Source of the DNA: Lysobacterales bacterium
Lineage (GTDB): Bacteria > Pseudomonadota > Gammaproteobacteria > Xanthomonadales > Marinicellaceae
Assembly (NCBI GenBank): GCA_026988115.1
Contig: JALSLV010000047.1
Coordinates: 1 to 64,000 of the forward strand
DNA: 64,000 bases
Direction: 5' to 3'
Of this stretch, positions 36,459-48,836 are shown piece by piece. Numbering within the stretch: the stretch's first letter is position 1; the number at the start of each line of letters is the position of its first letter. The position numbers and the translations under genes were made by a program. Below the pieces are notes generated by a model. That model was not told the origin of the DNA, searched no databases, and saw nothing but the letters and a program-made list of their open reading frames with translations.

Positions 36459-37595
36459 TTATGCTCTTTGCGATAGTGGTGTCACTTTTCTTGGGCCAAC
36501 TCCAACGTAATCAGCATTGGGTCGAATAATGCGGTTATTGGCGCGTTGTTCCATCACATGAGCAGCCCAACCTGTGATTCGTGAACAGACAAATATCGGG
36601 GTGAACAGTTTGGTTGGGATGTTCATAAAATGATAAGCCGATGCGTGGAAAAAATCGGCATTCGGAAAAATGTGTTTTTCATCCCAGAGTTTTTTCTCAA
36701 CCGCGCAACTAACATCATACAGACATTCATCACCGACATCTTCGGACAATTCTTTTGACCAGCGTTTGATTAAAGCATTTCTGGGATCACTTTCGGTGTA
36801 AACTGCGTGCCCAAATCCCATGATTAATTGTTTGGTTGCCAACATATCATCGATTCCTGCAATGGCTTCATCAACCGATTTCCATTGCGACAACATTGCC
36901 ATGGCTGCTTCGTTAGCCCCACCATGAAGTGGTCCGCGTAGTGCGCCAACGGCTGCAGTTACGCACGAATACATATCCGATAAAGTCGAGGCAACAACGC
37001 GTCCTGTAAAAGTTGAAGCATTAAACTCGTGTTCGGCATACAAGATTAAGGACACGTCCATCACACGTGCATGTAAAGCATTGGGTTTTTCGCCACGTAG
37101 CATATGCAAAAAGTGTCCACCGATTGAATCATCATCCAAAGCCGTTTCGATACGCACACCTTCATGGGTAAACTTATACCAATAACAGATAATGGATGGA
37201 AAAGCACCAAGTAACCTATCGGCGGCATCTTGTTGCTGTGAAAAATCCATTTCAGGCTCTAAGTTACCCAACATAGAGCAACCTGTGCGCATGACATCCA
37301 TTGGGTGCGTGTCTTTTGGAATCATCTCCAAAGTGGCTTTTAAGGCTTCGGGTAAATCACGGTTAGCCATGATTTTGGCTGAATATTCTTGCAGTTGTGT
37401 TTGGTTTGGCAATTCACCATGAAAAATGAGGTATGCTGTTTCATAAAAGGTGGTGTTTTCGGCTAAATCTGCCACATCGTAACCGTTGTAAGTTAAGCCT
37501 GAGCCTGAAACGCCCACGGTGCATAATTTTGTTTCGCCAGCTGATTGTCCACGAAGACCTGCTCCGCCTGCTTTCTTTGCTTTTTGATCTGCCAT
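36459..37595 (-). CDS. prpC: 2-methylcitrate synthase PrpC
   Basis: The 378-residue enzyme condenses propionyl-CoA with oxaloacetate. It is a citrate-synthase fold protein with LCTVGVSGSGLTYNGYDVAD near the N terminus, the active-site His regions GPLHGGANEAAM and GFGHAVYTESDPRN, and the Asp/Arg region NADFFHASAYHFMNIPTKLF followed by SRITGWAAHVMEQ. Short length and the HGGANE form fit PrpC rather than GltA. ATG 37595 is preferred; upstream in-frame residues lack conservation. It lies downstream of prpB on the same strand, 96 bases apart. prpD or acnD are not in view. Confidence 0.92.
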   Translation of the reverse strand: MADQKAKKAGGAGLRGQSAGETKLCTVGVSGSGLTYNGYDVADLAENTTFYETAYLIFHGELPNQTQLQEYSAKIMANRDLPEALKATLEMIPKDTHPMDVMRTGCSMLGNLEPEMDFSQQQDAADRLLGAFPSIICYWYKFTHEGVRIETALDDDSIGGHFLHMLRGEKPNALHARVMDVSLILYAEHEFNASTFTGRVVASTLSDMYSCVTAAVGALRGPLHGGANEAAMAMLSQWKSVDEAIAGIDDMLATKQLIMGFGHAVYTESDPRNALIKRWSKELSEDVGDECLYDVSCAVEKKLWDEKHIFPNADFFHASAYHFMNIPTKLFTPIFVCSRITGWAAHVMEQRANNRIIRPNADYVGVGPRKVTPLSQRA

Positions 37596-37691
37596 AATGT
37601 TTTCTCTTATAATTTGTAGGATAGGCACTGCCCATCAGTTCTTATTAAATAGTTGTTAGTTGTTCCATGATGGGTCAGTCCCATCTTAGGA

Positions 37692-38576
37692 TTATTTTTT
37701 TGAAAATAACTCGTCTAATTTTTGTTCGTATCTGTGGTAGCCTAAAAACTCATACATGTCTTCACGCGGTTGCATAATGTCGATGACATTGCGTTGATGA
37801 CCGTCTTTTAATAGCGCTTCGTAAACATTTTGTGCTCCTTTATTCATAGCTCGGTAAGCACCACAGCAATAAAGAACAATGTCGACATCGTGTACGCTCA
37901 GTTCTTTTTGAGAGTATAATTCAGTTTTTCCAAATTCGGTTATATTGGCAAGTATTGGCACTTTTACAGCCTTTTTAATTTGTTGGTATTGGGCTAGTGA
38001 CTGTACCGCTTCAGGGAATATCATGTCGGCTCCCGCTTCTACATAAGCCACCATGCGTTCGATGGCTGAGTCTATGCCTTCAATGGCGATGGCATCGGTA
38101 CGTGCCATAATGACAAATTCATCATCTGTTCGGGCATCAACAGCTGCTTTGACTCTATCGACCATTTCTTGTTTGGTAACCACTTCTTTATTGGGTCGGT
38201 GACCACAGCGTTTTTCTGCTACTTGGTCTTCCATGTGCATGGCTGCAGCGCCTGCTTTGATAACACTGCGTGTGGTTCGAGCAATATTAAAAGCACCGCC
38301 CCAACAGGTATCAACATCAATTAACAGTGGCAATTTACACACATCGGTGATTCTTCTGGTATCAATTAATACATCCTCTAATGATGAAATACCTAAATCA
38401 GGCATGCCCAAAGAATTAGCTGCCACACCTCCACCTGATAAATAAATGGCTTTGTGTCCAATCTTTTCTGCCATAAGTGCGGTTAATGCAGTAATTGTTC
38501 CCACAACGCTCAGGGGTTTATTGTTGGTAACAGCCGCGCGAAATAAGGATCCTGCTGATTGATTTAGATTTGTCAT
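37692..38576 (-). CDS. prpB: 2-methylisocitrate lyase PrpB
   Basis: The 294-residue TIM-barrel enzyme splits 2-methylisocitrate into pyruvate and succinate in the methylcitrate cycle. Signatures: [20 protein letters not shown], the metal-binding DVDTCWGG, the catalytic [10 protein letters not shown] (isocitrate lyase superfamily KKCGH) and [16 protein letters not shown]. The length is the family's usual 290-297. It is the first gene of a prpB-prpC unit that disposes of propionyl-CoA, for example from branched amino acids. No PrpR-type regulator lies next to it. Confidence 0.95.
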
Positions 38577-38804
38577 AGTATAGCCTGATTAGATTCGCGC
38601 GTATTATACCAAGTTTGGATTTAAAAGACTAATTAGCATTTGCTTATATTATCTAGCAGGTTTAATTATTGAGACCACTAAAAGGGTTGTGAAATGGTTC
38701 GTTTGTTTTTTAATTTAGATTGATAAATTTAGTTGGGTTCTCTAATCAACAAAGTACGTCACTTTCCCCTGTTGGTTTAGTTAATCAGGTTAAAAAAGGA
38801 GTTT

Positions 38805-38827
38805 AAATGTGATACCAATCACAAATT
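38805..38827. promoter_or_regulatory. CRP-type binding site
   Basis: TGTGA-TACCAA-TCACA (38808-38823) matches both consensus half-sites of the cAMP receptor protein, flanked by A/T triplets (AAA and AAATT). Its centre is about 69-70 bases upstream of the start point expected from the promoter at 38851, close to the class I activating positions. A crp gene is not in the window. Confidence 0.65.
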
Positions 38828-38843
38828 GTAAATATATTTACAA
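38826..38843. promoter_or_regulatory. Perfect palindrome, candidate operator
   Basis: TTGTAAATATATTTACAA is an 18-bp perfect palindrome between the CRP-type site and the -35 box (8 bases upstream of it). It fits a dimeric repressor or activator site. TyrR boxes are TGTAAA-N6-TTTACA; here the spacer is N4, so TyrR is not assigned. Confidence 0.55.
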
Positions 38844-38850
38844 ATAGGTG

Positions 38851-38878
38851 TTGACTATTGTTTTGAGCTAGGTATAAA
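38851..38878 (+). promoter_or_regulatory. Sigma-70 promoter of the five-gene operon
   Basis: TTGACT (38851-38856) and TATAAA (38873-38878) with a 16-base spacer; each differs from consensus at one position. The expected start is near 38885, leaving a leader of about 42 bases before ATG 38927. Confidence 0.7.
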
Positions 38879-38926
38879 TGGATTTATTGAAAATGGAAAG
38901 TACTAATATTAATGCAAGAGGTTATT

Positions 38927-40060
38927 ATGAAGAATACACAGACAAGAAAGATAGAGTTGGTTAAATCACAAGCTAATAAAAACATCCAGGTGCAACCCAT
39001 ACCTGTTGTTCTTAACCAGTGCAAGCGAGCGTTTACCACAAGACATGTCAATTTAGGTGATGCGCATACCCTGTTAACAGGAGAAGTCAAGCCCAAAGCA
39101 GGAGATTTGGTTCTTTGTGAAGTGACCCGTTTGAGGCAACATTGCCGCATTGAACAGCCAAATGGACGGCGTAGTCGAATGTTTGTGCATGATAAGATTG
39201 TTGTTTGTTATGGAAACCGCTATGCGCCTGATCAATTTGAATCAGTTGTTCCTGATGATTTAAGTGCATGCCATTTGGTGGCAGGTGGTGGCGTTGCCTC
39301 TCACATGCGTTTTAAAAGCCCGAAGGTTAAACCCGCTACTGAAATTCAGCCTTTAGGGTTGTTGGGCAATAAACATGGACAAGTTTTAAATCTGAATCAA
39401 TACAATGTTTTGACTCCTTCTAAAACAGAAACTTCAAAAAACATTCCAATTCTTCTTGTCTCTGGATCTTCCATGAACGCAGGCAAAACAACAACAGTTG
39501 CTAGCCTGATTAAAGGGTTAACAGCGGATGGCTTTAATGTTTCGGCTGCAAAAGTTACGGGCACAGGCTCTGGTGGTGATTTATGGCATTTTATTGATGC
39601 AGGTGTATCAAAAGCAATTGATTTTACCGATGCAGGGCTGGTTTCAACTTACCTTATGTCAAATCAAAGCTTGGTTCGGTTATTTGATGAAATGATAACT
39701 TATTTAAAAACACCGCAAACAGATGTAATCGTAGTGGAAGTGGCAGATGGTATTTTACAAGGTGAAACGAAAGCATTGCTTGAATCACCAGAAATAATCA
39801 ATGCAACAACAGCAATGGTTTATACGGCAGGTGATAGTTCTTCCGCAGTTTATGGCGATAATTGGTTGCAATCACTGGGTTATCAAGTTTTGGGAATATC
39901 AGGGGTCGTTTCATCTAATCCATTGGGTGTTCAAGAAGTGGAAAAAATGACCTCTACTCCAATTTTTAAGAAAAAAGAAACGGTGGCGGCGGGTTTTGGT
40001 CATCAATTGCATGACATGCTCTTGGAATTAAGTCTTTCACCCCTAAGAGTGGATAAATAA
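38927..40060 (+). CDS. P-loop NTPase, DUF1611-like, operon head
   Basis: The 377-residue product has an N-terminal region of about 165 residues without a recognised domain and a C-terminal P-loop domain. The P loop is GSSMNAGKTTT (about 180-190), followed by LIKGLTADGFNVSAAKVTGT and VIVVEVADGILQGET, a pattern shared by DUF1611-type and BioD/MobB-like NTPases. AGAGG lies 6-7 bases before ATG 38927, which is preferred over 38912. It starts a five-gene operon with an exporter, a hydrolase, a porin and a secreted repeat protein; gap to the next gene is 6 bases. Function unknown. Confidence 0.7.
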   Translation: MKNTQTRKIELVKSQANKNIQVQPIPVVLNQCKRAFTTRHVNLGDAHTLLTGEVKPKAGDLVLCEVTRLRQHCRIEQPNGRRSRMFVHDKIVVCYGNRYAPDQFESVVPDDLSACHLVAGGGVASHMRFKSPKVKPATEIQPLGLLGNKHGQVLNLNQYNVLTPSKTETSKNIPILLVSGSSMNAGKTTTVASLIKGLTADGFNVSAAKVTGTGSGGDLWHFIDAGVSKAIDFTDAGLVSTYLMSNQSLVRLFDEMITYLKTPQTDVIVVEVADGILQGETKALLESPEIINATTAMVYTAGDSSSAVYGDNWLQSLGYQVLGISGVVSSNPLGVQEVEKMTSTPIFKKKETVAAGFGHQLHDMLLELSLSPLRVDK

Positions 40061-40066
40061 AACGCC

Positions 40067-41743
40067 ATGAAAAATCAATTTTCACCCTTTAACCCTCCAG
40101 CCAATTATTGGAAGAAATCTCGATTCCAAATAGTGCAACTGATTATTAATGGTTTACTCAAATCATCGGTTGTTGTTGGCAGTTATTATTGGGTGAAAAA
40201 CCTTTCTTCGCAGATAAGGAATCAACAAGAAATCAATACGCACACCATTGTTTATTTGTTAATCGCAGCAGGATTAATTGTGGCTTTACGGGTGCATGAA
40301 CGCTACGTGTCAGAAAAAATGTCACAACGTTACATCAATTCACTTCGTTCGGGCTTGCTTAAACGTTTAATGCGTGCCTCGGTTAGAAACATTCAAGCGC
40401 GGACTATCGGAAACTTATCTTCACGTTTGGCAGGTGATTTATCTGCTTTAAAGCGATGGTTGAGTCTAGGGATTTCACGATTAATCACACACAGCTTGTT
40501 GTTGCTATTGACGACACTATTGGTTTTTAAGATAAATGCGTCATTGGGTGTTGTTATTTCATTAACCTTAATGGCTTTGTTGGTGTTGTCGGTGCTTGTT
40601 GGTGGTTTTTTAAAAAATAGCATTAGGGTTGTTCGGCGCAATAGGATTGCCATTCACAGTTTGTTGGTGGAACGCTTGTCGTCATTGGCTACAATTCGCT
40701 CTATGGGAAAAGAAGGGCGTGAAGTGGCACGAATTAATAAACAAGCAAAAAAATTAGAAAAAAACATTGCAAAACAGGGGGTGTTTTTGGGTTTTATCCG
40801 CGGCATAGGAGACTCTTCTTCATTAATTTTAATCAGTGTGTTTTTTGTCTTTAATGGGCTAAATAATCATGTTTTGGCATTAGATGAAATCACGGCTTTG
40901 ATAAGTATTATTTTGTTTTTAAATTCCCCAATTAGGGAATTGGGTAGGACGCAAGAATATTACCAAGGAGCGAAATTATCCATCGCAAAAATTGAAGAAT
41001 TGTATGCCATTCCCAGAATAGTCAGAGGCAAAAGCAGTCACGAAACGATTGAAAAAGATTCGGCTTCGCTTGGGCGAATTGAGTTAAGAAATACCACCGT
41101 AAAAGAAACGTTTAAACAGCTGTCTGTACGTGCCCAAAATGGTGAGCATATTGCATTGACTGGAACTAATGGCTCAGGCAAGAGCACATTAATTCAGATT
41201 GTACTTGGCTTGATAAAAGTGGACTCAGGTTTTGTTCGAGTTAATGGCAGTGCGCCCAATAAGACACCTTCGTTAGATAGAGCAAATCATATTGGTTTTG
41301 CCTCGGCAGAAGCGGGTCTTATCAAAGGCACTTTGTTGGAAAATTTATGTTACCGTAAAGGCAAAGAAAATTTGCAAGGATTTGATGAATTAATGGAGTT
41401 TTGTCAATTAAATAACCTAGTCAAAAAACTTCCCAAGGGTTTGAATACACGCATTTTAGAAAAAGGAAAGAACTTATCTTCGGGCGAAAAAGCACGCATT
41501 TTATTATTTAGGGCCTTATTAGGGAAACCTGCCATATTGATATTAGATGAGCCTGAGAGTTATCTAGATAAACAAGGTCTTGAAATCATAAAAAGCCTAT
41601 TAGGAGAGTATAAAGGTACTATTTTAATGGCGACACACAATATCGAATTAATAAAGCTTTGCCATAAAGAGTGGAATATGGATAGTTTAAAGAAAAACAA
41701 ATCTCCAGTGAGACTAATAAATGATTATGCAGAAAACAAATAA
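40067..41743 (+). CDS. ABC exporter (fused permease and ATPase) with altered Q loop
   Basis: The 558-residue product has six hydrophobic segments in residues about 20-300 and a C-terminal ATPase. Walker A is GTNGSGKST (about 367), signature LSSGEKAR, Walker B ILILDEP, and the H loop MATHN. The Q-loop Gln expected in V-P-Q before the GT(L/I)xEN segment is absent (FASAEAGLIKGTLLEN). It is probably a homodimeric inner-membrane exporter. The downstream hydrolase gene starts 23 bases before its stop codon. Cargo is unknown; no peptidase C39 domain is present, so a processed bacteriocin-type cargo is not indicated. Confidence 0.88.
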   Translation: MKNQFSPFNPPANYWKKSRFQIVQLIINGLLKSSVVVGSYYWVKNLSSQIRNQQEINTHTIVYLLIAAGLIVALRVHERYVSEKMSQRYINSLRSGLLKRLMRASVRNIQARTIGNLSSRLAGDLSALKRWLSLGISRLITHSLLLLLTTLLVFKINASLGVVISLTLMALLVLSVLVGGFLKNSIRVVRRNRIAIHSLLVERLSSLATIRSMGKEGREVARINKQAKKLEKNIAKQGVFLGFIRGIGDSSSLILISVFFVFNGLNNHVLALDEITALISIILFLNSPIRELGRTQEYYQGAKLSIAKIEELYAIPRIVRGKSSHETIEKDSASLGRIELRNTTVKETFKQLSVRAQNGEHIALTGTNGSGKSTLIQIVLGLIKVDSGFVRVNGSAPNKTPSLDRANHIGFASAEAGLIKGTLLENLCYRKGKENLQGFDELMEFCQLNNLVKKLPKGLNTRILEKGKNLSSGEKARILLFRALLGKPAILILDEPESYLDKQGLEIIKSLLGEYKGTILMATHNIELIKLCHKEWNMDSLKKNKSPVRLINDYAENK

Positions 41744-42536
41744 AAACAACCCAAAGTTTAGCGGCAGCATAAAGAAAGGCAGTTTATCTTCTTGTGATAA
41801 ATTAAAGTACTATTATGTTAAGGGCGGTGACGAAATAAGCAATATTGTGGTTTTGGTTCATGGTATTTCCAGAAATGCTGAAGAAATAATTAACAGTTTT
41901 AGTCAACAGATGAGTCCTGACAGCTTACTAATCGCACCAGTTTTTTCTAAAGATTATGCCACTGATTACCAACGCTTAGGTCGGAAAAGTAAAGGACCAA
42001 GAGCCGATTATATACTGCAAGCCACCATCAATGAGTTGTCAACTCAGTATGATATTGAAGTGAATAAGATAAATTTATTTGGCTTTTCAGCAGGAGCTCA
42101 ATTTGTGCAACGATATGCCTTTGCCCATCCTGCTCAGGTGAAAAAAGTAGCCATTGTGTCAGCAGGTTGGTATACCATGCCAAGCTTTAGTGAGTATTAC
42201 CCTTATGGTTTAAAGCTCAGAAATGAATTTTCGGATATTGATTTTAAGTTCATGCGATTCTTGAGAGTTAAATACCGTGTGTATGTTGGAGAAAAAGATT
42301 ATTTGCGTGATAAATCACTAAATAAAAGCAAAAAAGTTGACAGATTGCAGGGTCAAAACCGATTAGAAAGAGCTGAAAGTTGGACAAATAAAATGAATAA
42401 GTGTTTTGAAAAATACGCGATAAAAAACAGAGTCAGTTTAGAAGTTTTAGAGAATGTTACCCACGATTTTAGTTTAGCTGATAATTTGGGTCATCTGTGT
42501 GGAAAAGTTTCTCGTTGGTTTAAGCAAGAAGATTAA
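41721..42536 (+). CDS. Alpha/beta hydrolase (esterase/peptidase-like)
   Basis: The 271-residue product shows VVLVHGISRNAEEI (oxyanion region), the nucleophile elbow LFGFSAGAQF (Ser about 122) and a C-terminal His in NVTHDFS (about 247), the elements of a serine alpha/beta hydrolase; the acid residue is probably in VYVGEKD. No signal peptide is visible. Several Lys-rich stretches occur near the end (LNKSKKVDRLQ). It overlaps the ABC exporter gene by 23 bases and precedes the porin gene by 3 bases, so it belongs to the same system. Substrate unknown. Confidence 0.82.
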   Translation: MIMQKTNKNNPKFSGSIKKGSLSSCDKLKYYYVKGGDEISNIVVLVHGISRNAEEIINSFSQQMSPDSLLIAPVFSKDYATDYQRLGRKSKGPRADYILQATINELSTQYDIEVNKINLFGFSAGAQFVQRYAFAHPAQVKKVAIVSAGWYTMPSFSEYYPYGLKLRNEFSDIDFKFMRFLRVKYRVYVGEKDYLRDKSLNKSKKVDRLQGQNRLERAESWTNKMNKCFEKYAIKNRVSLEVLENVTHDFSLADNLGHLCGKVSRWFKQED

Positions 42537-42539
42537 AAC

Positions 42540-43643
42540 ATGAAATTTTTAATTTGTTTACTAATAATGGCATTTAGTTTGAACCTGAATGCAAAAATCA
42601 GCTACGATTTTGGTGCAAGAATGGAGGCTGATTATAGTTTTTATGATGACGACCAAAATATATTTCCTGATAAAGAATGGGATGTTAGGCGGTTTCGATT
42701 TGGTTTGTTTACTAAGTTTAATGAGAAGTTTTCTGCCTATTTTCAATCTGATATTTCTAATTTTGAGAGGAAGCGAAAAGGTGCAACACAAGCGGTATGG
42801 TTGCGTTATCGACCAAATAAGAGAAATGAATTTTTTGCAGGTAAAATGGAAATGCCATTTAGTCTTGAGAGCGTCAGTAACTCTAAATACCATTTTTTTA
42901 TGGAACGTTCTATTTCTAGTGCCTTAACTGAGCGTTTTGGAACTGGGATTAACTACATCCATTATGGGAAAGATTGGAATATTCGATTTGGACTATTTGG
43001 TGATGATCACTACGAACTGGGAAGTTCAAGTTTTTATGGCAAAGCCATGACGACCCGATTTGGTAAAAAAATAAAAATAGCTGGCAATAAGTTTTATTTT
43101 GGTGCTTCTTTTCAATATAGAAAACCTAATACATCAATCAGAATTAGAACGCGGCCAGAATCTAATGCATTTAATTATAAACTACTTGATACAGGTACAT
43201 TGTTTTTTATTAATTCGATTGAAAAGTATGGGTTGGAGGCTCTATGGAAGAAAGGCTTATGGACAATGCAAGCAGAATACATACAGAATAAGTTTACCCG
43301 AGATTTTGTGCAGCCAGACCTTAAATACGACGGTGGGTATTTTATTATAAGTAAAATATTTAATGGTCAAAGGCGATTTAGTTTTAGGAAAGGTGAGTGG
43401 GCATCGACCAAGGTAAAAAAACACAGAACTTGGGAAGTGTCGGCTCGTTACAGTTATTTAGATTTAACAGATGAAAACTTAAATGCAGGATACGAAGAAA
43501 ATATTTCATTAGGAATAAATTATTATATAAGCAATAAAAATCGTTTAATGTTTAATTACATACAAGCGAAAACAACACCCAATAGTTTTGGAATAAATCA
43601 AACACTAAATATACTTCAAGCCAGATTTCAGCTTGAGTTTTAA
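42540..43643 (+). CDS. OprP/OprO-like outer-membrane porin
   Basis: The 367-residue product has a signal peptide (MKFLICLLIMAFSLNLNAK) and a barrel of amphipathic strands resembling phosphate-selective porins: DVRRFRFGLFTKFNEKFSAY, LRYRPNKRNEFFAGKMEMPF, and FMERSISSALTERFGTGINY. It ends in the strand LQARFQLEF with the terminal Phe that BAM recognises. Many Arg and Lys residues suggest an anion-selective pore. It is gene four of the operon, 3 bases after the hydrolase and 12 before the repeat protein. Confidence 0.85.
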   Translation: MKFLICLLIMAFSLNLNAKISYDFGARMEADYSFYDDDQNIFPDKEWDVRRFRFGLFTKFNEKFSAYFQSDISNFERKRKGATQAVWLRYRPNKRNEFFAGKMEMPFSLESVSNSKYHFFMERSISSALTERFGTGINYIHYGKDWNIRFGLFGDDHYELGSSSFYGKAMTTRFGKKIKIAGNKFYFGASFQYRKPNTSIRIRTRPESNAFNYKLLDTGTLFFINSIEKYGLEALWKKGLWTMQAEYIQNKFTRDFVQPDLKYDGGYFIISKIFNGQRRFSFRKGEWASTKVKKHRTWEVSARYSYLDLTDENLNAGYEENISLGINYYISNKNRLMFNYIQAKTTPNSFGINQTLNILQARFQLEF

Positions 43644-43655
43644 TCAGAGGATATT

Positions 43656-45899
43656 ATGAAAATTTTTATATTACTTTTATTGATTGCGATTAGTGGTCAA
43701 GTTACAGCCATTAATGTGACCGCACCTATACGAACAAGCCATGTTGGACCCGATTCGAATAAAGAATACGATGCTGAAGAGTCTGCTGTTGCATTCAACT
43801 CACAAAATAATGAGTACCTAATCGTCTTTGAAGGAACAGACTCTATTACAGGAACAGGTGTTAATGTTAAGGCAGCTATAGAAATCTTTGCCCAAAGAAT
43901 TGATGCCACAACAAATGCCCCGCTTGCTCAACTGATAAAAATAAGCGAAATGGGACCCTCTGGCAATACCACCTATGATGCCAGAAAACCAGATGTAGTC
44001 TATAACCCACAAGCCAATGAATACATAGTGGTGTGGTATGGAGACACCAACTCTGTAAGCGGGGCTAATACGGTAGAAGGAGAGTTTGAGATATGGGGAA
44101 GAAGGATAAATGCAGCAAATGGACAGCCTGTTGGCTCGCAATTTAAAATTTCAGAAATGGGGCCGACTGCCAACCGTTCTTACGATGCTGTCGATCCTGT
44201 GATTGCTTATAATGAAATAGAAAACACTTATTTAGTGGTATGGCGTGGAGAAGATGGTAACACAGTAAATGCAATAGGAGAGTTTGAAATTTATGGTCAG
44301 CAGTTAAGTGCCTCTGGTGCTCAGATTGGTGCCAATGATTTTAGAATTTCGGATATGGGTGCGAATGGCCAGCCCATTTTTGATGCCTATTCACCATCAA
44401 TTGCCTACAATAAAACCAATAATGAATTTTTAGTGGTTTGGTATGGGGATGACGATAAAAATGGACATGTCAGTGGTGAGTTTGAGATATATGGCCAGCG
44501 CTTAAATGCAAGTAACGGGGCAGAAGTAGGGGTTAATGATTTTCAAATTTCTGAAACAGGTGTTCCTGGTTTTGCCACGCGATCAGCTCAGTTTCCATCA
44601 GTTGCGTGGAACAGCATTGATAACCAATACCTCGTTGTTTGGTCTGCTGATCCAGCCACAGGGGTTTATGTCGGTAATGAGTTTGAAATATTCGGGCAAA
44701 TATTAGCAGCAGATGGTAGTGAAATTGGAGATGATGATTTTGCTATCAGCCACATAGGACCCGATGGAAACAATAACTACGATGCCTTTAGACCACAGGT
44801 CGAATACATGAAGCAATCAAAGCAATATTTGGTGGCTTACCGAGCGGATACTGATGTGGATGGTGAGTTTGAAATATTTATGCAAAGACTTGATGGAAAA
44901 ACACAGCTTAGGCTAGGGCAAACAAGCCAAAGGATTTCACACGCAGGTCCTGAGGGGTCATTGGTCTATGATGCTAGGCGAGTGGACCTTGGCTATAACA
45001 GCAATACAGGCGAAGCCCTATTAATTTGGGAACAAGAAGATAATAACACTTCGCAAATATTGGGTGAATTAGAAATCTATGCCAGCACAGTAACTCCCTC
45101 AGAGTTCATTGCGGATTACACCACCTCAGGTTCGTGGTATGACGTCAATCGCAGTGGAGAAGGCTACATAATCGAAATGTTGCCCAATAATGGCGTGCTT
45201 GTGATGTGGTTTACGTATTTACCCAATCAAGCTGAACAGGCGTGGTTGATAGGCACAGGGAGTTATAATGGTAATAGAATCCTTTTGGAAAATGTACAAA
45301 TTACCTCGGGCGGTGTTTTTGGCCCTACTTTTGATCCTGCATTAGTGCAACGTCAAGTGTGGGGAGATATTTCCTTTGAATTTGATGGCTGCAATGCAGG
45401 AATTATCAATTACAATGCCATAAGTAGCAGTTACGGTGATGGCGATCACGCAACAACCCGATTAACCAGTTTATCTGGAGCAAATTGTACAACACATGCT
45501 CAATCAACAGATGTTTTAGATGGAATATCTGGTGCGTGGTATGACCCAACACATGATGGTGAGGGGTGGTTTTTAGAATACCTTGGAAGCAATAATGTCC
45601 TGATGTATTGGTTTTCTTATGATAACCTAGGTAACCAAAAGTGGATGTTAGATGTCGGAACGATTGATGCAAATAACCTCATTACTTTTGCCAATATGAG
45701 TCAAAAGAATGGCACGTTTTTTGGAGAAAACTTTAACCCAGCGAATGTCAATAATATCAACTGGGGAACCATGCAAATGCAGATAAATGACTGCAACTCA
45801 CTGTCGGTGAGTTACGATTCGCCTATCGGAATTTATGGTCAAGGTGTATTAAATGCTACCCGAATTACTGATATTGATCAGATAGAATGTCAGTTATAA
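43656..45899 (+). CDS. Secreted protein: seven propeller-like repeats plus two C-terminal WYDP/GEGW domains
   Basis: The 747-residue product has a signal peptide (about residues 1-19). Residues about 27-475 hold seven repeats of 60-70 residues with the core (I/T)S-x-x-G-x-x-x-x-x-x-(Y/F)DA, AYN, (E/Q)-(Y/F)-L-V-V-W, then FEI(Y/F)GQ; seven copies suggest a seven-bladed beta-propeller. Two related domains of about 110 residues follow (SGSWYDVNRSGEGYIIEML and SGAWYDPTHDGEGWFLEYL), each ending near a Cys pair region (DGCNAG, DCNSL). This C-terminal domain occurs in secreted proteins of Xanthomonas-like bacteria, as I remember. Last gene of the operon; probably surface-exposed or released, role unknown. 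Confidence 0.8.
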   Translation: MKIFILLLLIAISGQVTAINVTAPIRTSHVGPDSNKEYDAEESAVAFNSQNNEYLIVFEGTDSITGTGVNVKAAIEIFAQRIDATTNAPLAQLIKISEMGPSGNTTYDARKPDVVYNPQANEYIVVWYGDTNSVSGANTVEGEFEIWGRRINAANGQPVGSQFKISEMGPTANRSYDAVDPVIAYNEIENTYLVVWRGEDGNTVNAIGEFEIYGQQLSASGAQIGANDFRISDMGANGQPIFDAYSPSIAYNKTNNEFLVVWYGDDDKNGHVSGEFEIYGQRLNASNGAEVGVNDFQISETGVPGFATRSAQFPSVAWNSIDNQYLVVWSADPATGVYVGNEFEIFGQILAADGSEIGDDDFAISHIGPDGNNNYDAFRPQVEYMKQSKQYLVAYRADTDVDGEFEIFMQRLDGKTQLRLGQTSQRISHAGPEGSLVYDARRVDLGYNSNTGEALLIWEQEDNNTSQILGELEIYASTVTPSEFIADYTTSGSWYDVNRSGEGYIIEMLPNNGVLVMWFTYLPNQAEQAWLIGTGSYNGNRILLENVQITSGGVFGPTFDPALVQRQVWGDISFEFDGCNAGIINYNAISSSYGDGDHATTRLTSLSGANCTTHAQSTDVLDGISGAWYDPTHDGEGWFLEYLGSNNVLMYWFSYDNLGNQKWMLDVGTIDANNLITFANMSQKNGTFFGENFNPANVNNINWGTMQMQINDCNSLSVSYDSPIGIYGQGVLNATRITDIDQIECQL

Positions 45900-46050: not shown

Positions 46051-46093
46051 TTAAATGAATCTGAGAATTAACACTAAAATAAAGGAAAATATT

Positions 46094-46366
46094 ATGAAAA
46101 TCAAAAATAAAATAAAAATTATGTCTTGTACATTGGTACTTATTTCAAATTTTGCATGGTCACAACAAGTCACGAAAGTGAATAAAAACTGTTATGTTAT
46201 CAATAAAGATATTGTTGGCACTGGAGGATCTCCATCGGATGTTATTGGTACTGGAGGATCTCCAAGTGAAATAATAGGTATTGGAGGATCTCCAAGTGAA
46301 ATAATAGGTATAGGTGGTATTACTACTTATTGTACCCCAAAAAATAGTAGTGGCACAGATAGTTAA
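46094..46366 (+). CDS. Small secreted peptide with GIGGSPSE(I/V)I repeats
   Basis: The 90-residue product starts at ATG 46094, with AAGGA about 9 bases upstream; an earlier in-frame ATG at 46055 lacks a site. A signal peptide (about residues 1-26, ending FAWSQ) leads to a mature peptide of about 65 residues. Three to four 10-residue repeats, G(T/I)GGSPS(D/E)(V/I)I, sit between two Cys residues (KNCYV and TYCTP), so a disulfide could close the repeat region into a loop. No family recognised. The motif EIIGIGGI recurs at the C terminus of the DUF5666-like protein two genes downstream. A terminator follows. Confidence 0.65.
   Translation: MKIKNKIKIMSCTLVLISNFAWSQQVTKVNKNCYVINKDIVGTGGSPSDVIGTGGSPSEIIGIGGSPSEIIGIGGITTYCTPKNSSGTDS
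46217..46306 (+). repeat. 30-bp in-frame tandem repeat, three copies plus a partial
   Basis: Units begin at 46217, 46247 and 46277 (GG.A.TGGAGGATCTCCA), with a partial fourth at 46307. Copies two and three differ by one base. They encode the 10-residue repeat of the secreted peptide; copy number could change by slippage. Confidence 0.85.
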
Positions 46367-46507: not shown

Positions 46508-47344
46508 ATGACTCATATGCCTAAAATTGCTGAACTCAATCGTTTATTAAGCTACATGGCTTATCGTATCTTTGAGCCGTTGGTTATTCTGTTTTTGAGA
46601 AATTCTGTTCCTTATCAAACTGCGTCGGATTGGTTAAAAAGAATCTATGTCGATGTGGCATTGGAAAATAAGGAGTTTAGGATAAACCCTGATAAAAAAC
46701 AAACCAAAACCAGAGTGGCTGTTTTAACGGGTTTATCGCGTGTTGAAATAGATCGGGTGTTGAAAATTGAAAAACCCCTAGAAGTAACAGAACAAAAATG
46801 GAATCGAGCAACCAAAGTTTTATCTGGGTGGTCGAATGACTCTAGGTACGTTAGTCAAAATGGACAACCTAAAGATTTACCAATTTATGGAGAGCATTCA
46901 TTTAGTTCACTAGTTGACAATTACAGCGGTGGAGCTACCATGCGTTCAGTTTTAGATGAATTAGTTTATGTGGGTTCCGTAGAAATTTGTAATAATAATG
47001 TTAGGTTAATAAGAACAGATTATGCACCAACTCCGAATAAGGCAAAATTGATTGATCTAGAGTTTTATGGAATATATATTGGGGAACTCTTAAACACCAT
47101 TACATATAACGATATTGAGGTTGATGAAGAGAAAAAAAGATTTCAAAAAATAGTTTTTCATCGAACTATTCCAGAATCTAATAAAAAAGAAGCCATTGAT
47201 TTTATTAAAGAAAAAACGGATGTACTGTTGTCAGTAGTTGATCAAAAATTGTCAGAGCTCGCGGAGAGTAAGTTATCAGAACCTACAACTCGATTAGGGT
47301 TGGGAACATATTATTTTGAAGAGGTAAATCATGAAAAAAATTAA
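46508..47344 (+). CDS. DUF6502 family protein
   Basis: The 278-residue product has the features I associate with DUF6502: an N-terminal helical region (LNRLLSYMAYRIFEPLVILF, then RIYVDVALENKEF), the putative helix-turn-helix-like stretch KTRVAVLTGLSRVEIDRVLK, and WNRATKVLSGWSNDSRYVSQ followed by a Gly-rich segment and a helical C-terminal half. There is no membrane segment, so it is cytoplasmic; the HTH-like part hints at DNA binding but this is inference. Its end overlaps the start of the DUF5666-like gene by 14 bases, a coupled pair. The function of the family is unknown. Confidence 0.75.
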   Translation: MTHMPKIAELNRLLSYMAYRIFEPLVILFLRNSVPYQTASDWLKRIYVDVALENKEFRINPDKKQTKTRVAVLTGLSRVEIDRVLKIEKPLEVTEQKWNRATKVLSGWSNDSRYVSQNGQPKDLPIYGEHSFSSLVDNYSGGATMRSVLDELVYVGSVEICNNNVRLIRTDYAPTPNKAKLIDLEFYGIYIGELLNTITYNDIEVDEEKKRFQKIVFHRTIPESNKKEAIDFIKEKTDVLLSVVDQKLSELAESKLSEPTTRLGLGTYYFEEVNHEKN

Positions 47345-48836
47345 AACTATCCTTGTGTTGTTAATTATAATATTTTCTACACTTATAAATGCCCAGTTGA
47401 TAAAAGTGAATGGTATTCGAGATTTTATTATCGATAGCAAAACATTGGTTTCTCTTGATGGTGTAATCATAGACAATAATACACTGTTTGAAATAATAGG
47501 ACATGGCGGATATAAAATTAGATTTAGAGTCGGTGGGGATGTAAACACTACAATTTCTACCGGAACTTTGAGTGAACTAGACTTTATATCTGATATTAAG
47601 GGGCCTATAACTAACCTTAATCCTTTAACTATATTGGAGCAACCGACTTTTATTACATCAGACACAAATCTTATAAATTTAATATCTGTAGCAGACTTGA
47701 ATGTAAGTGACTTATTAAAAGTTAGTGGTTCAATTAACGAGGTTGATAACTCTATGCAATTATCACGATTAGAATTAGATAACGGTCTTTCGGAATGGAA
47801 ACTCCGTGGTTTTGCAAGAAATATTACGGCACTAAATTTTACCATTGGTAATTTAACCATTAATATTAATGCAGTATCCGCAATAGATTGTAGCAATGGT
47901 TTTATTGAAAATGTTTTTGTTGAGGTTAAGGCAATGCCTGATGCCAGTTATGTTGCAGGCAATCCATTGTCGACGCTAACAAGTATACAGTGCCAGACTC
48001 CAGATGTTTATGAAGACCCTAATAACAGTATTCCAGTCGTAGTTGAAGCGATGGTTTCGGAAATTATAGACTTATCATCGTTTAGAATTAATGACTTAGT
48101 GGTGTTTTTTGATGGCAGTACAAGTTTTGATAACGGTGAGTCAGAGCATATAGATGTCGGGACCAAAATAGAAGTGCAAGGATTTCTTGATACCAATACC
48201 CGTTTTATTAATGCAACAACTATTCGATTTATTCACCACAGAGTTAAATTTGTGGCGCCAGTTAAGCCTGCCGATATTACCATAGGCGAGGGTGTTTTAA
48301 TTTTTGGCAAGCAGGTTTCTATTACACCACAAACAAGAGATGACGATGCCATTGTTTCATCTGGTCTTATAGCAGAACGACAAGTAGAAGTAAGAGGTTT
48401 TGTCGACTCAATGGGAAATGTTTATGCCTTGCGAGTCAAAGACAAAGGCACACCCGATAATACAGACACTAAACTGAGAGGTGACATTACCGCTTTAAAT
48501 CAGCCAATCTTTGAACTGGATGGAGTTGCAATAGATGCAAGCGCCTCGCTATTTGAGATAGAGACTGGTTTTGTTGATATTAATGCATTTTTTGCAATGC
48601 TTCAAGTGGGTATGCAGGTCAAAATTGAACATGCAACATACGATGTAAATACGCAAATACTGACGGGAGGCGTGATTGAATTGATAGAACAGGAATTAGA
48701 AGATGATCCCGAAAATACGAACAAATCAAACGTGATTTCAGCACCAAAAGAAATAATTGGTATTGGTGGAATAGGATTAGCGACTGTGACTAAAGTTTCC
48801 GTTATAGAAACAATATTTAAGGCAAGTTTTGAATAA
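47331..48836 (+). CDS. Secreted DUF5666-like protein with C-terminal GIGGIG motif
   Basis: The 501-residue product has a signal peptide (about residues 1-22, ending INA) and is built of several repeated OB-like beta units with hallmarks such as VKVNGI, DFIIDSKTLVSLDG, VEVRGFVDSMGNVYALRVKD and LRGDITALNQPIFELDGVAI, the pattern of DUF5666 proteins. Cys residues are few (DCSNGF, IQCQTP). Near the C terminus EIIGIGGIG repeats the motif of the secreted peptide at 46094. The ATG lies inside the DUF6502 gene, so the two are translated together. Probably periplasmic or extracellular; role unknown. Confidence 0.7.
   Translation: MKKIKTILVLLIIIFSTLINAQLIKVNGIRDFIIDSKTLVSLDGVIIDNNTLFEIIGHGGYKIRFRVGGDVNTTISTGTLSELDFISDIKGPITNLNPLTILEQPTFITSDTNLINLISVADLNVSDLLKVSGSINEVDNSMQLSRLELDNGLSEWKLRGFARNITALNFTIGNLTININAVSAIDCSNGFIENVFVEVKAMPDASYVAGNPLSTLTSIQCQTPDVYEDPNNSIPVVVEAMVSEIIDLSSFRINDLVVFFDGSTSFDNGESEHIDVGTKIEVQGFLDTNTRFINATTIRFIHHRVKFVAPVKPADITIGEGVLIFGKQVSITPQTRDDDAIVSSGLIAERQVEVRGFVDSMGNVYALRVKDKGTPDNTDTKLRGDITALNQPIFELDGVAIDASASLFEIETGFVDINAFFAMLQVGMQVKIEHATYDVNTQILTGGVIELIEQELEDDPENTNKSNVISAPKEIIGIGGIGLATVTKVSVIETIFKASFE

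Follow-up and report, generated by a model that had tools for sequence, protein, structure and literature searches.

What might five closely packed genes accomplish together when their products would reach from the cytoplasm to the cell exterior and fit no pathway that we can name? The genes, here called A to E, follow one another in the same direction on the + strand at 38927-45899 of the window, by which we mean the whole 64,000-nucleotide stretch analyzed (positions 1-64000 of the 112-kb contig JALSLV010000047.1 from the 3.5-Mb genome of a Lysobacterales bacterium, assembly GCA_026988115.1). No paper describing the A-B-C module was found in our literature searches. We favor, with a probability of roughly 0.35, the reading that the unit serves to synthesize an acidic amino-acid compound with amide linkage, derived from aspartate or glutamate and possibly a short oligomer, and to export it. 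This reading draws on the linkage of A to B (50 of the 55 members of one A clade), the likeness of C to the poly(aspartic acid) hydrolase PahZ1, the fold of A with its invariant residues K214, D223 and E276, the acidic amino-acid context of A relatives, and the poly-Asp proteins encoded beside the module in Rhodobacterales. The chemistry class, an amide-linked acidic amino-acid compound, is moderately supported; export as the direction and the identity of the product are more tentative.

The list of open reading frames (ORFs) reproduces the intergenic distances given in the original prediction (+6, -23, +3 and +12 bases), and the proposal that the genes form one operon holds on spacing, shared strand and conserved order. 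The operon call depends on these features because the promoter and terminator scans did no better than shuffled sequence: the sigma-70 scan gave 39 promoter-like sites against 40.1 expected, with no site better than chance, and the terminator scan gave 5 terminator-like sites against 7.4 expected. Gene A was present in 18 of 61 relative genomes (own included). When twelve window proteins were compared across 17 loci, 12 of the loci had an A at least 52% identical, and 10 of these kept the order and strand of A-B-C-D-E (L022, L023, L024, L025, L027-L031, and L033, with E in L023 cut by the contig end); the exceptions are L026, which has A-D without E, and L032, which ends at A at a contig edge. 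At L034-L038, where A is 26-37% identical, A occurs without B-E, and the only further match to a window protein is a kinase in L036.

A survey of the class found gene A in 29 of 369 genomes (own included), and 18 places besides our own reached an expectation value (E) of 6e-50 or better. By profile search, B directly adjoins A at 16 of these; at L080 the genes B-C-D are about 6 kb away and at L090 there are none. Approached from the partner genes, all 12 places outside the window with a strong B match (E ≤ 1e-50, three candidates scored per genome) coincide with an A cluster, the distance to A being about 6 kb in one case, and all 11 with a strong C match (E ≤ 1e-27) are at A-B clusters; the strong C match of G146 is on a separate contig, beside the end of a B gene. 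In the order to which genome G509 belongs, 20 of 195 genomes have gene A, and a B-family ATP-binding cassette (ABC) gene was labeled in 18 of 19 loci (G509 itself aside), the exception being L152; at L143 the B gene near A lies on the opposite strand. On plasmids of Sulfitobacter, Tritonibacter and two Paracoccus the order is C-A-B. A maximum-likelihood tree of 73 A rows, from which rows shorter than 250 aa or with fewer than 200 aligned residues were left out (e.g., L038 and L152), has one clade of 55 rows, of which 50 have a same-strand B-family ABC gene within 3.5 kb. The original prediction would have been abandoned had the genes been found mostly apart in other genomes; the search for gene A beside this exporter found them together instead.

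The remaining genes are less constant. Gene C is absent from L076, L082, L083, L086, and L087 by profile search, 13 of the 18 gammaproteobacterial genomes tested carry a Porin_O_P gene within the cluster, E was seen beside the module nowhere but in the window's family and G057 among the loci compared, and L068, L108, and L113 have a small lipoprotein-like gene at the module. Since C, D, E, and the downstream DUF6502 gene vary across loci, the conserved core is A-B, usually with C, and the outer layer (porin, propeller protein or small lipoprotein-like gene) is interchangeable. The core is spread over Gammaproteobacteria, where the order is A-B-C, and Rhodobacterales, where it is C-A-B. Conservation of the five genes as a set was thus not upheld: C and D are frequent companions and E is a lineage add-on. 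In the module of G267, gene C (L077, 12200-13105) is broken by a TAA stop and is perhaps a decaying copy.

Gene A (38927-40060, +) encodes a P-loop protein of 377 aa. The first ATG of its ORF is at 38912 (a 382-aa reading), and the alternative at 38927 is most likely the start, as an AAGAGG motif stands immediately 5' of it and relatives align from MKN. Numbered from 38912, as in the 382-aa reading, the protein consists of an N-terminal domain (residues ~1-168) followed by a BioD/CTP-synthase-like domain with the P-loop GSSMNAGKT at 185-193. Residues invariant over 35 A sequences include G185, G191, K192, T193, K214, G217, D223, F238, G242, and E276; we take K214 and E276 to occupy places comparable to those of BioD active-site residues. 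No curated Pfam or NCBIfam model was reached by gene A, its P-loop matches being sub-threshold only, and no curated family covers it or gene E. The score against MobB was 23.8 bits (cut-off 26.6) and window A was not listed for TIGR00347, the BioD equivalog, at E 0.1. The proposed membership of DUF1611 could not be sustained, with 14.1 bits against PF07755 (gathering cut-off 25) and none of seven distant A members over that cut-off (best 21.7 bits).

The A family profile matched BioD in the PDB at 2.3e-4, the match being confined to the P-loop region. Only residues ~170-375 are well modeled by AlphaFold, with the predicted local distance difference test (pLDDT) mostly 60-95 in the P-loop domain; the N-terminal part (1-168) is unreliable and its fold is therefore left uninterpreted. 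In VIA-align the best structural match of the P-loop domain was BioD (Z 16.4, 3.2 Å, 190 residues), and other matches included CTP synthase (Z 15.3, 3.5 Å, 191 residues) and 2g0t, the putative nucleotide-binding protein TM0796 (Z 14.8), which we take to be a DUF1611 protein. The model accordingly suggests that the domain is BioD/CTP-synthase-like, with a BioD Z just 1-2 units above those of signal recognition particle (SRP) GTPases. At L070 (7950-9713) and L151 (8566-10389), two related loci, gene A continues into a long C-terminal extension, and the L070 protein is called a transposase by NCBI; in both, the A domain may be fused to part of a transposase.

Gene C (41721-42536, +, 271 aa) bears on the bond concerned. 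Among solved structures its best matches are those of poly(aspartic acid) hydrolase-1 (9o7u, E 1.1e-15; 6ve6, E 5.1e-10), along with LpqC (3d0k), and its putative triad is conserved as S123 in 31, D193 in 31, and H248 in 30 of 32 alignment rows, two of which are halves of one split gene. PahZ1 is described as cutting β-Asp amide bonds (PMC4456602). We consequently read C as a PahZ1-type α/β-hydrolase with a Ser-Asp-His triad, not a generic esterase, and predict amide cleavage. The original prediction had suggested an esterified or peptide-like compound; since this hydrolase is the nearest solved structure to C, the peptide-like (amide) alternative is favored and the ester is not. No signal peptide or hydrophobic leader was seen by eye at the start of window C, which is therefore probably cytoplasmic. 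Such leaders were seen by eye in the unlinked relatives L112 and L114 and the linked L073, L075, and L079, and they make it less likely that C is strictly cytoplasmic in all lineages.

The other three products are expected to act in transport or at the surface. Gene B (40067-41743, +, 558 aa) encodes an ABC exporter-type half transporter (PF00664, 84.3 bits, cut-off 28; PF00005, 86.9 bits, cut-off 25), which presumably works as a homodimer and resembles many exporters in the PDB; its best NCBIfam match, CydD, scores 185.2 bits, below the 435-bit equivalog cut-off. Gene D (42540-43643, +, 367 aa) is an outer-membrane porin of the Porin_O_P family (PF07396, 146.4 bits, cut-off 20.9, profile positions 4-370 of 370), with an N-terminal signal-like stretch; it also matches Porin O and Porin P weakly. 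Domain searches thus agree with the earlier labels of P-loop protein, ABC exporter, hydrolase (here of the α/β type) and porin. Gene E (43656-45899, +, 747 aa) has no Pfam or NCBIfam family and no sequence relative in the PDB. Its model (mean pLDDT 71, predicted template modeling score 0.79) has a propeller at ~20-485, counted as seven-bladed, followed by two mutually similar C-terminal domains of ~125 aa, and matches CylK (Z 35.1), YncE (Z 34.3), and Photorhabdus PLL lectins (Z ~31). The model therefore agrees with the suggested propeller-like secreted protein, and we predict that E is a secreted seven-bladed β-propeller protein; the fold is common and implies no function.

Put together, A would be an ATP-dependent enzyme of the BioD/CTP-synthase fold forming an amide or N-acyl bond, B a homodimeric exporter moving the product into the periplasm, and D its passage through the outer membrane. 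C, in the cytoplasm, would open the same type of amide, recycling or limiting the product, and E might bind the product or a surface partner outside the cell. The same parts can be read in the opposite direction, with D and E capturing an external isopeptide or poly-acid, B importing it, C hydrolyzing it and A processing the released amino acid. A hydrolase that is probably cytoplasmic and degradative in kind would suit such uptake and recycling, as would a porin of the Porin_O_P family, whose members are substrate-selective, and a predicted secreted protein whose propeller fold also occurs in lectins and other proteins. However, the closest models of B are exporters, the domain search found neither a substrate-binding protein nor a TonB receptor among the operon genes, and the fact that A accompanies B more constantly than any other gene is easier to reconcile with synthesis than with catabolism. 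We consider the uptake reading doubtful.

The rhodobacterial loci add a context that the window does not have. Some of these modules adjoin genes for a HAMP histidine kinase and an OmpR-type regulator; others adjoin extracytoplasmic function (ECF) sigma, anti-sigma and S8 peptidase genes, the S8 genes lying up to 4 kb from the module. Asp-rich ORFs (at least 10 D in 20) occurred in 4 of the 6 alphaproteobacterial loci of a first set that included G509's own (L068 and L070 were negative). Nine of 19 rhodobacterial loci encode a secreted poly-Asp protein (at least 9 D in 20) no farther than ~3 kb from A, a count that treats related genomes as separate and in which five of the nine positive loci are one clade; the 19-locus scan gave ten Asp-rich ORFs, one of which is gene A itself (L151). 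Control stretches of the same replicons or genomes held no ORFs with at least 10 D in 20 over 349,505 bases and none with at least 9 D in 20 over 233,609 bases. The poly-Asp proteins are at L069 (4077-5600), L071 (6474-6926 and 10639-11979), L109 (8571-8999), and L115 (10959-12434), with further loci being L134-L138, L143, L149, and L150; they are secreted EF-hand type proteins, PepSY proteins, S8 peptidases, and others, with EF-hand scores below curated cut-offs. Together with the PahZ1-like C, these neighbors hint at an aspartate-based product but do not prove one.

This context also suggests a response to envelope stress or cations, in which the exported acidic compound would protect the surface from metal or a cationic peptide as a chelator or shield. 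The rhodobacterial neighbors (HAMP kinase and response regulator, poly-Asp EF-hand and PepSY proteins, or ECF sigma, anti-sigma and S8 peptidase) would fit such a module, but the window operon holds none of these regulators and the sub-threshold EF-hand scores count against it; we regard it as unlikely.

Relatives of A outside the ABC clade are the most informative about chemistry and point to a substrate class for the favored reading. A clade of 12 rows with support of 100/100 in the maximum-likelihood tree (L035-L037, L091-L097, L101, and L110) sits in arginine operons, for example argR-argG-X-argC-argD-argF'-argB-argH, in which X is the A relative; parts vary by locus and the gene names were assigned by eye from the sequences. 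In all 11 genomes with an arginine-operon X there was no ArgJ and no ArgA (TIGR01890) over cut-off, in a search that did not extend to short N-acetylglutamate synthase (S-NAGS), ArgO or the Corynebacterium type, which are described as other N-acetylglutamate synthase (NAGS) types (PMC3827942). Three controls that carry the ABC module (G080, G227, and G120) have ArgJ as well as ArgA over cut-off; in the window's genome and in G006 neither protein reaches its cut-off. The arginine-operon relative may supply the missing first step of arginine synthesis. A housekeeping NAGS role for A in the window's organism was set aside, as G000 has a separate TIGR01890 match (1.2e-21, positions 13-372, below cut-off) and A need not fill that role there.

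Other A relatives (L038, L098, L099, L100, and L111) lie directly 3' of an M20-type hydrolase gene, the four that are in the tree forming one clade. On a Priestia megaterium plasmid (L072), an A relative is found among two ATP-grasp genes, a split thiamine pyrophosphate (TPP) enzyme, ornithine carbamoyltransferase, M20, an LLM oxidoreductase, and a phosphoenolpyruvate (PEP)-mutase-like gene, an arrangement that resembles a phosphonate or amino-acid product cluster of a kind not described so far. From the sister clades in arginine operons and beside M20 genes, and from the Priestia cluster, we infer that the A family carries out amide or N-acyl chemistry, with acidic amino acids as substrates. 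The Priestia neighbors (ATP-grasp, M20, and PEP-mutase), and the resemblance of B to peptide and lipid exporters, could alternatively suggest a natural-product cassette that exports a siderophore- or peptide-like secondary metabolite with A as a tailoring ligase. We find this improbable: the Priestia protein falls outside the ABC clade, most loci have no accompanying biosynthetic genes, and conservation over genus and family is unlike that of a mobile product cluster.

Several points weigh against synthesis and export of an acidic amide. The SRP GTPases have Z values of 14-15 in the same VIA-align list and come first in the Foldseek list, and because BioD-fold enzymes catalyze several reactions the reaction of A is a guess. 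The match of C to PahZ1 is remote, and window C is without the leader visible in some of its relatives. Exporter-type ABC proteins can import. Some module loci are without C or D (L076, L082, L083, L086, and L087), so that neither is essential, and at the scan threshold the window and the gammaproteobacterial loci have no poly-Asp tract, bar a few exceptions (a weak case near L081, a DEG repeat near L086, and one inside the L089 ABC gene). That the operon is conserved yet functionally mixed, as the variable E, DUF6502, and DUF5666 genes and the loci without D or C might suggest, is very improbable given the overlapping or near-touching genes (-23 and +3 bases) and the recurrence of A, B, and C in different orders in Rhodobacterales and Gammaproteobacteria.

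A broader form of the favored reading is that A founds an unrecognized family of N-acyl- or amide-bond enzymes acting on acidic amino acids. The arginine clade would then be an unknown NAGS type, and the ABC clade would make an exported Asp-based oligomer that a cytoplasmic poly(Asp) hydrolase opens and that in Rhodobacterales is tied to poly-Asp/EF-hand surface proteins and two-component signaling. We think this rather unlikely as a whole. If A does act on acidic amino acids, the operon and the arginine operons without ArgA and ArgJ would be explained together, as would the presence of relatives of a poly(aspartate)-cutting enzyme in bacteria with no known use for one.

The surroundings of the operon are less constant than its core. 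Upstream, the divergent genes that we take from their protein sequences to be prpC-prpB (36459-38576) adjoin the module, an adjacency also found in G003, G006, and G010, and the intergenic region between prpB and gene A (38577-38926) is the presumed promoter site. Downstream are a DUF6502 gene (46508-47344, +) and, overlapping it, a DUF5666 gene (47331-48836, +) that neighbors the module in the window's family; both were rejected as core members, as DUF6502 is close to the module in just 6 of 18 genomes tested. Between E and the DUF6502 gene is a small ORF (46055-46366) with a signal-like leader and IIGIGGSPSE-type repeats; it matched no family, and in G003 the corresponding gap is too short to hold such an ORF. 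A precursor of a ribosomally synthesized and post-translationally modified peptide within the operon was rejected, as the -23 to +12 base spacing leaves no room. Anti-phage defense was likewise rejected, PADLOC giving no match for A, C, D, and E and only partial, ATPase-type matches for B.

Compared with known systems, the products of A, B, C, and E each share some features and differ in others. Gene A shares with BioD and CTP synthase the P-loop domain fold, the P-loop, and the invariant Lys, Asp, and Glu, but differs by its extra N-terminal domain of ~170 residues and its gene company, and it reaches neither the BioD nor the MobB curated model. With DUF1611/DgcN it shares weak P-loop similarity below the PF07755 cut-off; two plasmid relatives of A are labeled "DUF1611 domain-containing protein" by NCBI. 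Gene C aligns with PahZ1 at the GFSAG-QFV and SAG-YTMP motifs and the triad is conserved within the C family; unlike PahZ1, window C shows no signal peptide, and strong C matches are always with A-B. Gene B has the transmembrane domain-nucleotide-binding domain layout of CydD-type and related half transporters, but its partner genes differ and it fails the equivalog test for the CydD thiol exporter. Gene E shares its predicted fold at ~20-485 with CylK, YncE, and the PLL lectins, at ~9-15% identity and with two extra C-terminal domains. ABC export with a dedicated enzyme and a porin is known already; what is new in this envelope module, conserved in Gammaproteobacteria and Rhodobacterales and with no named function, is the unstudied central enzyme A.

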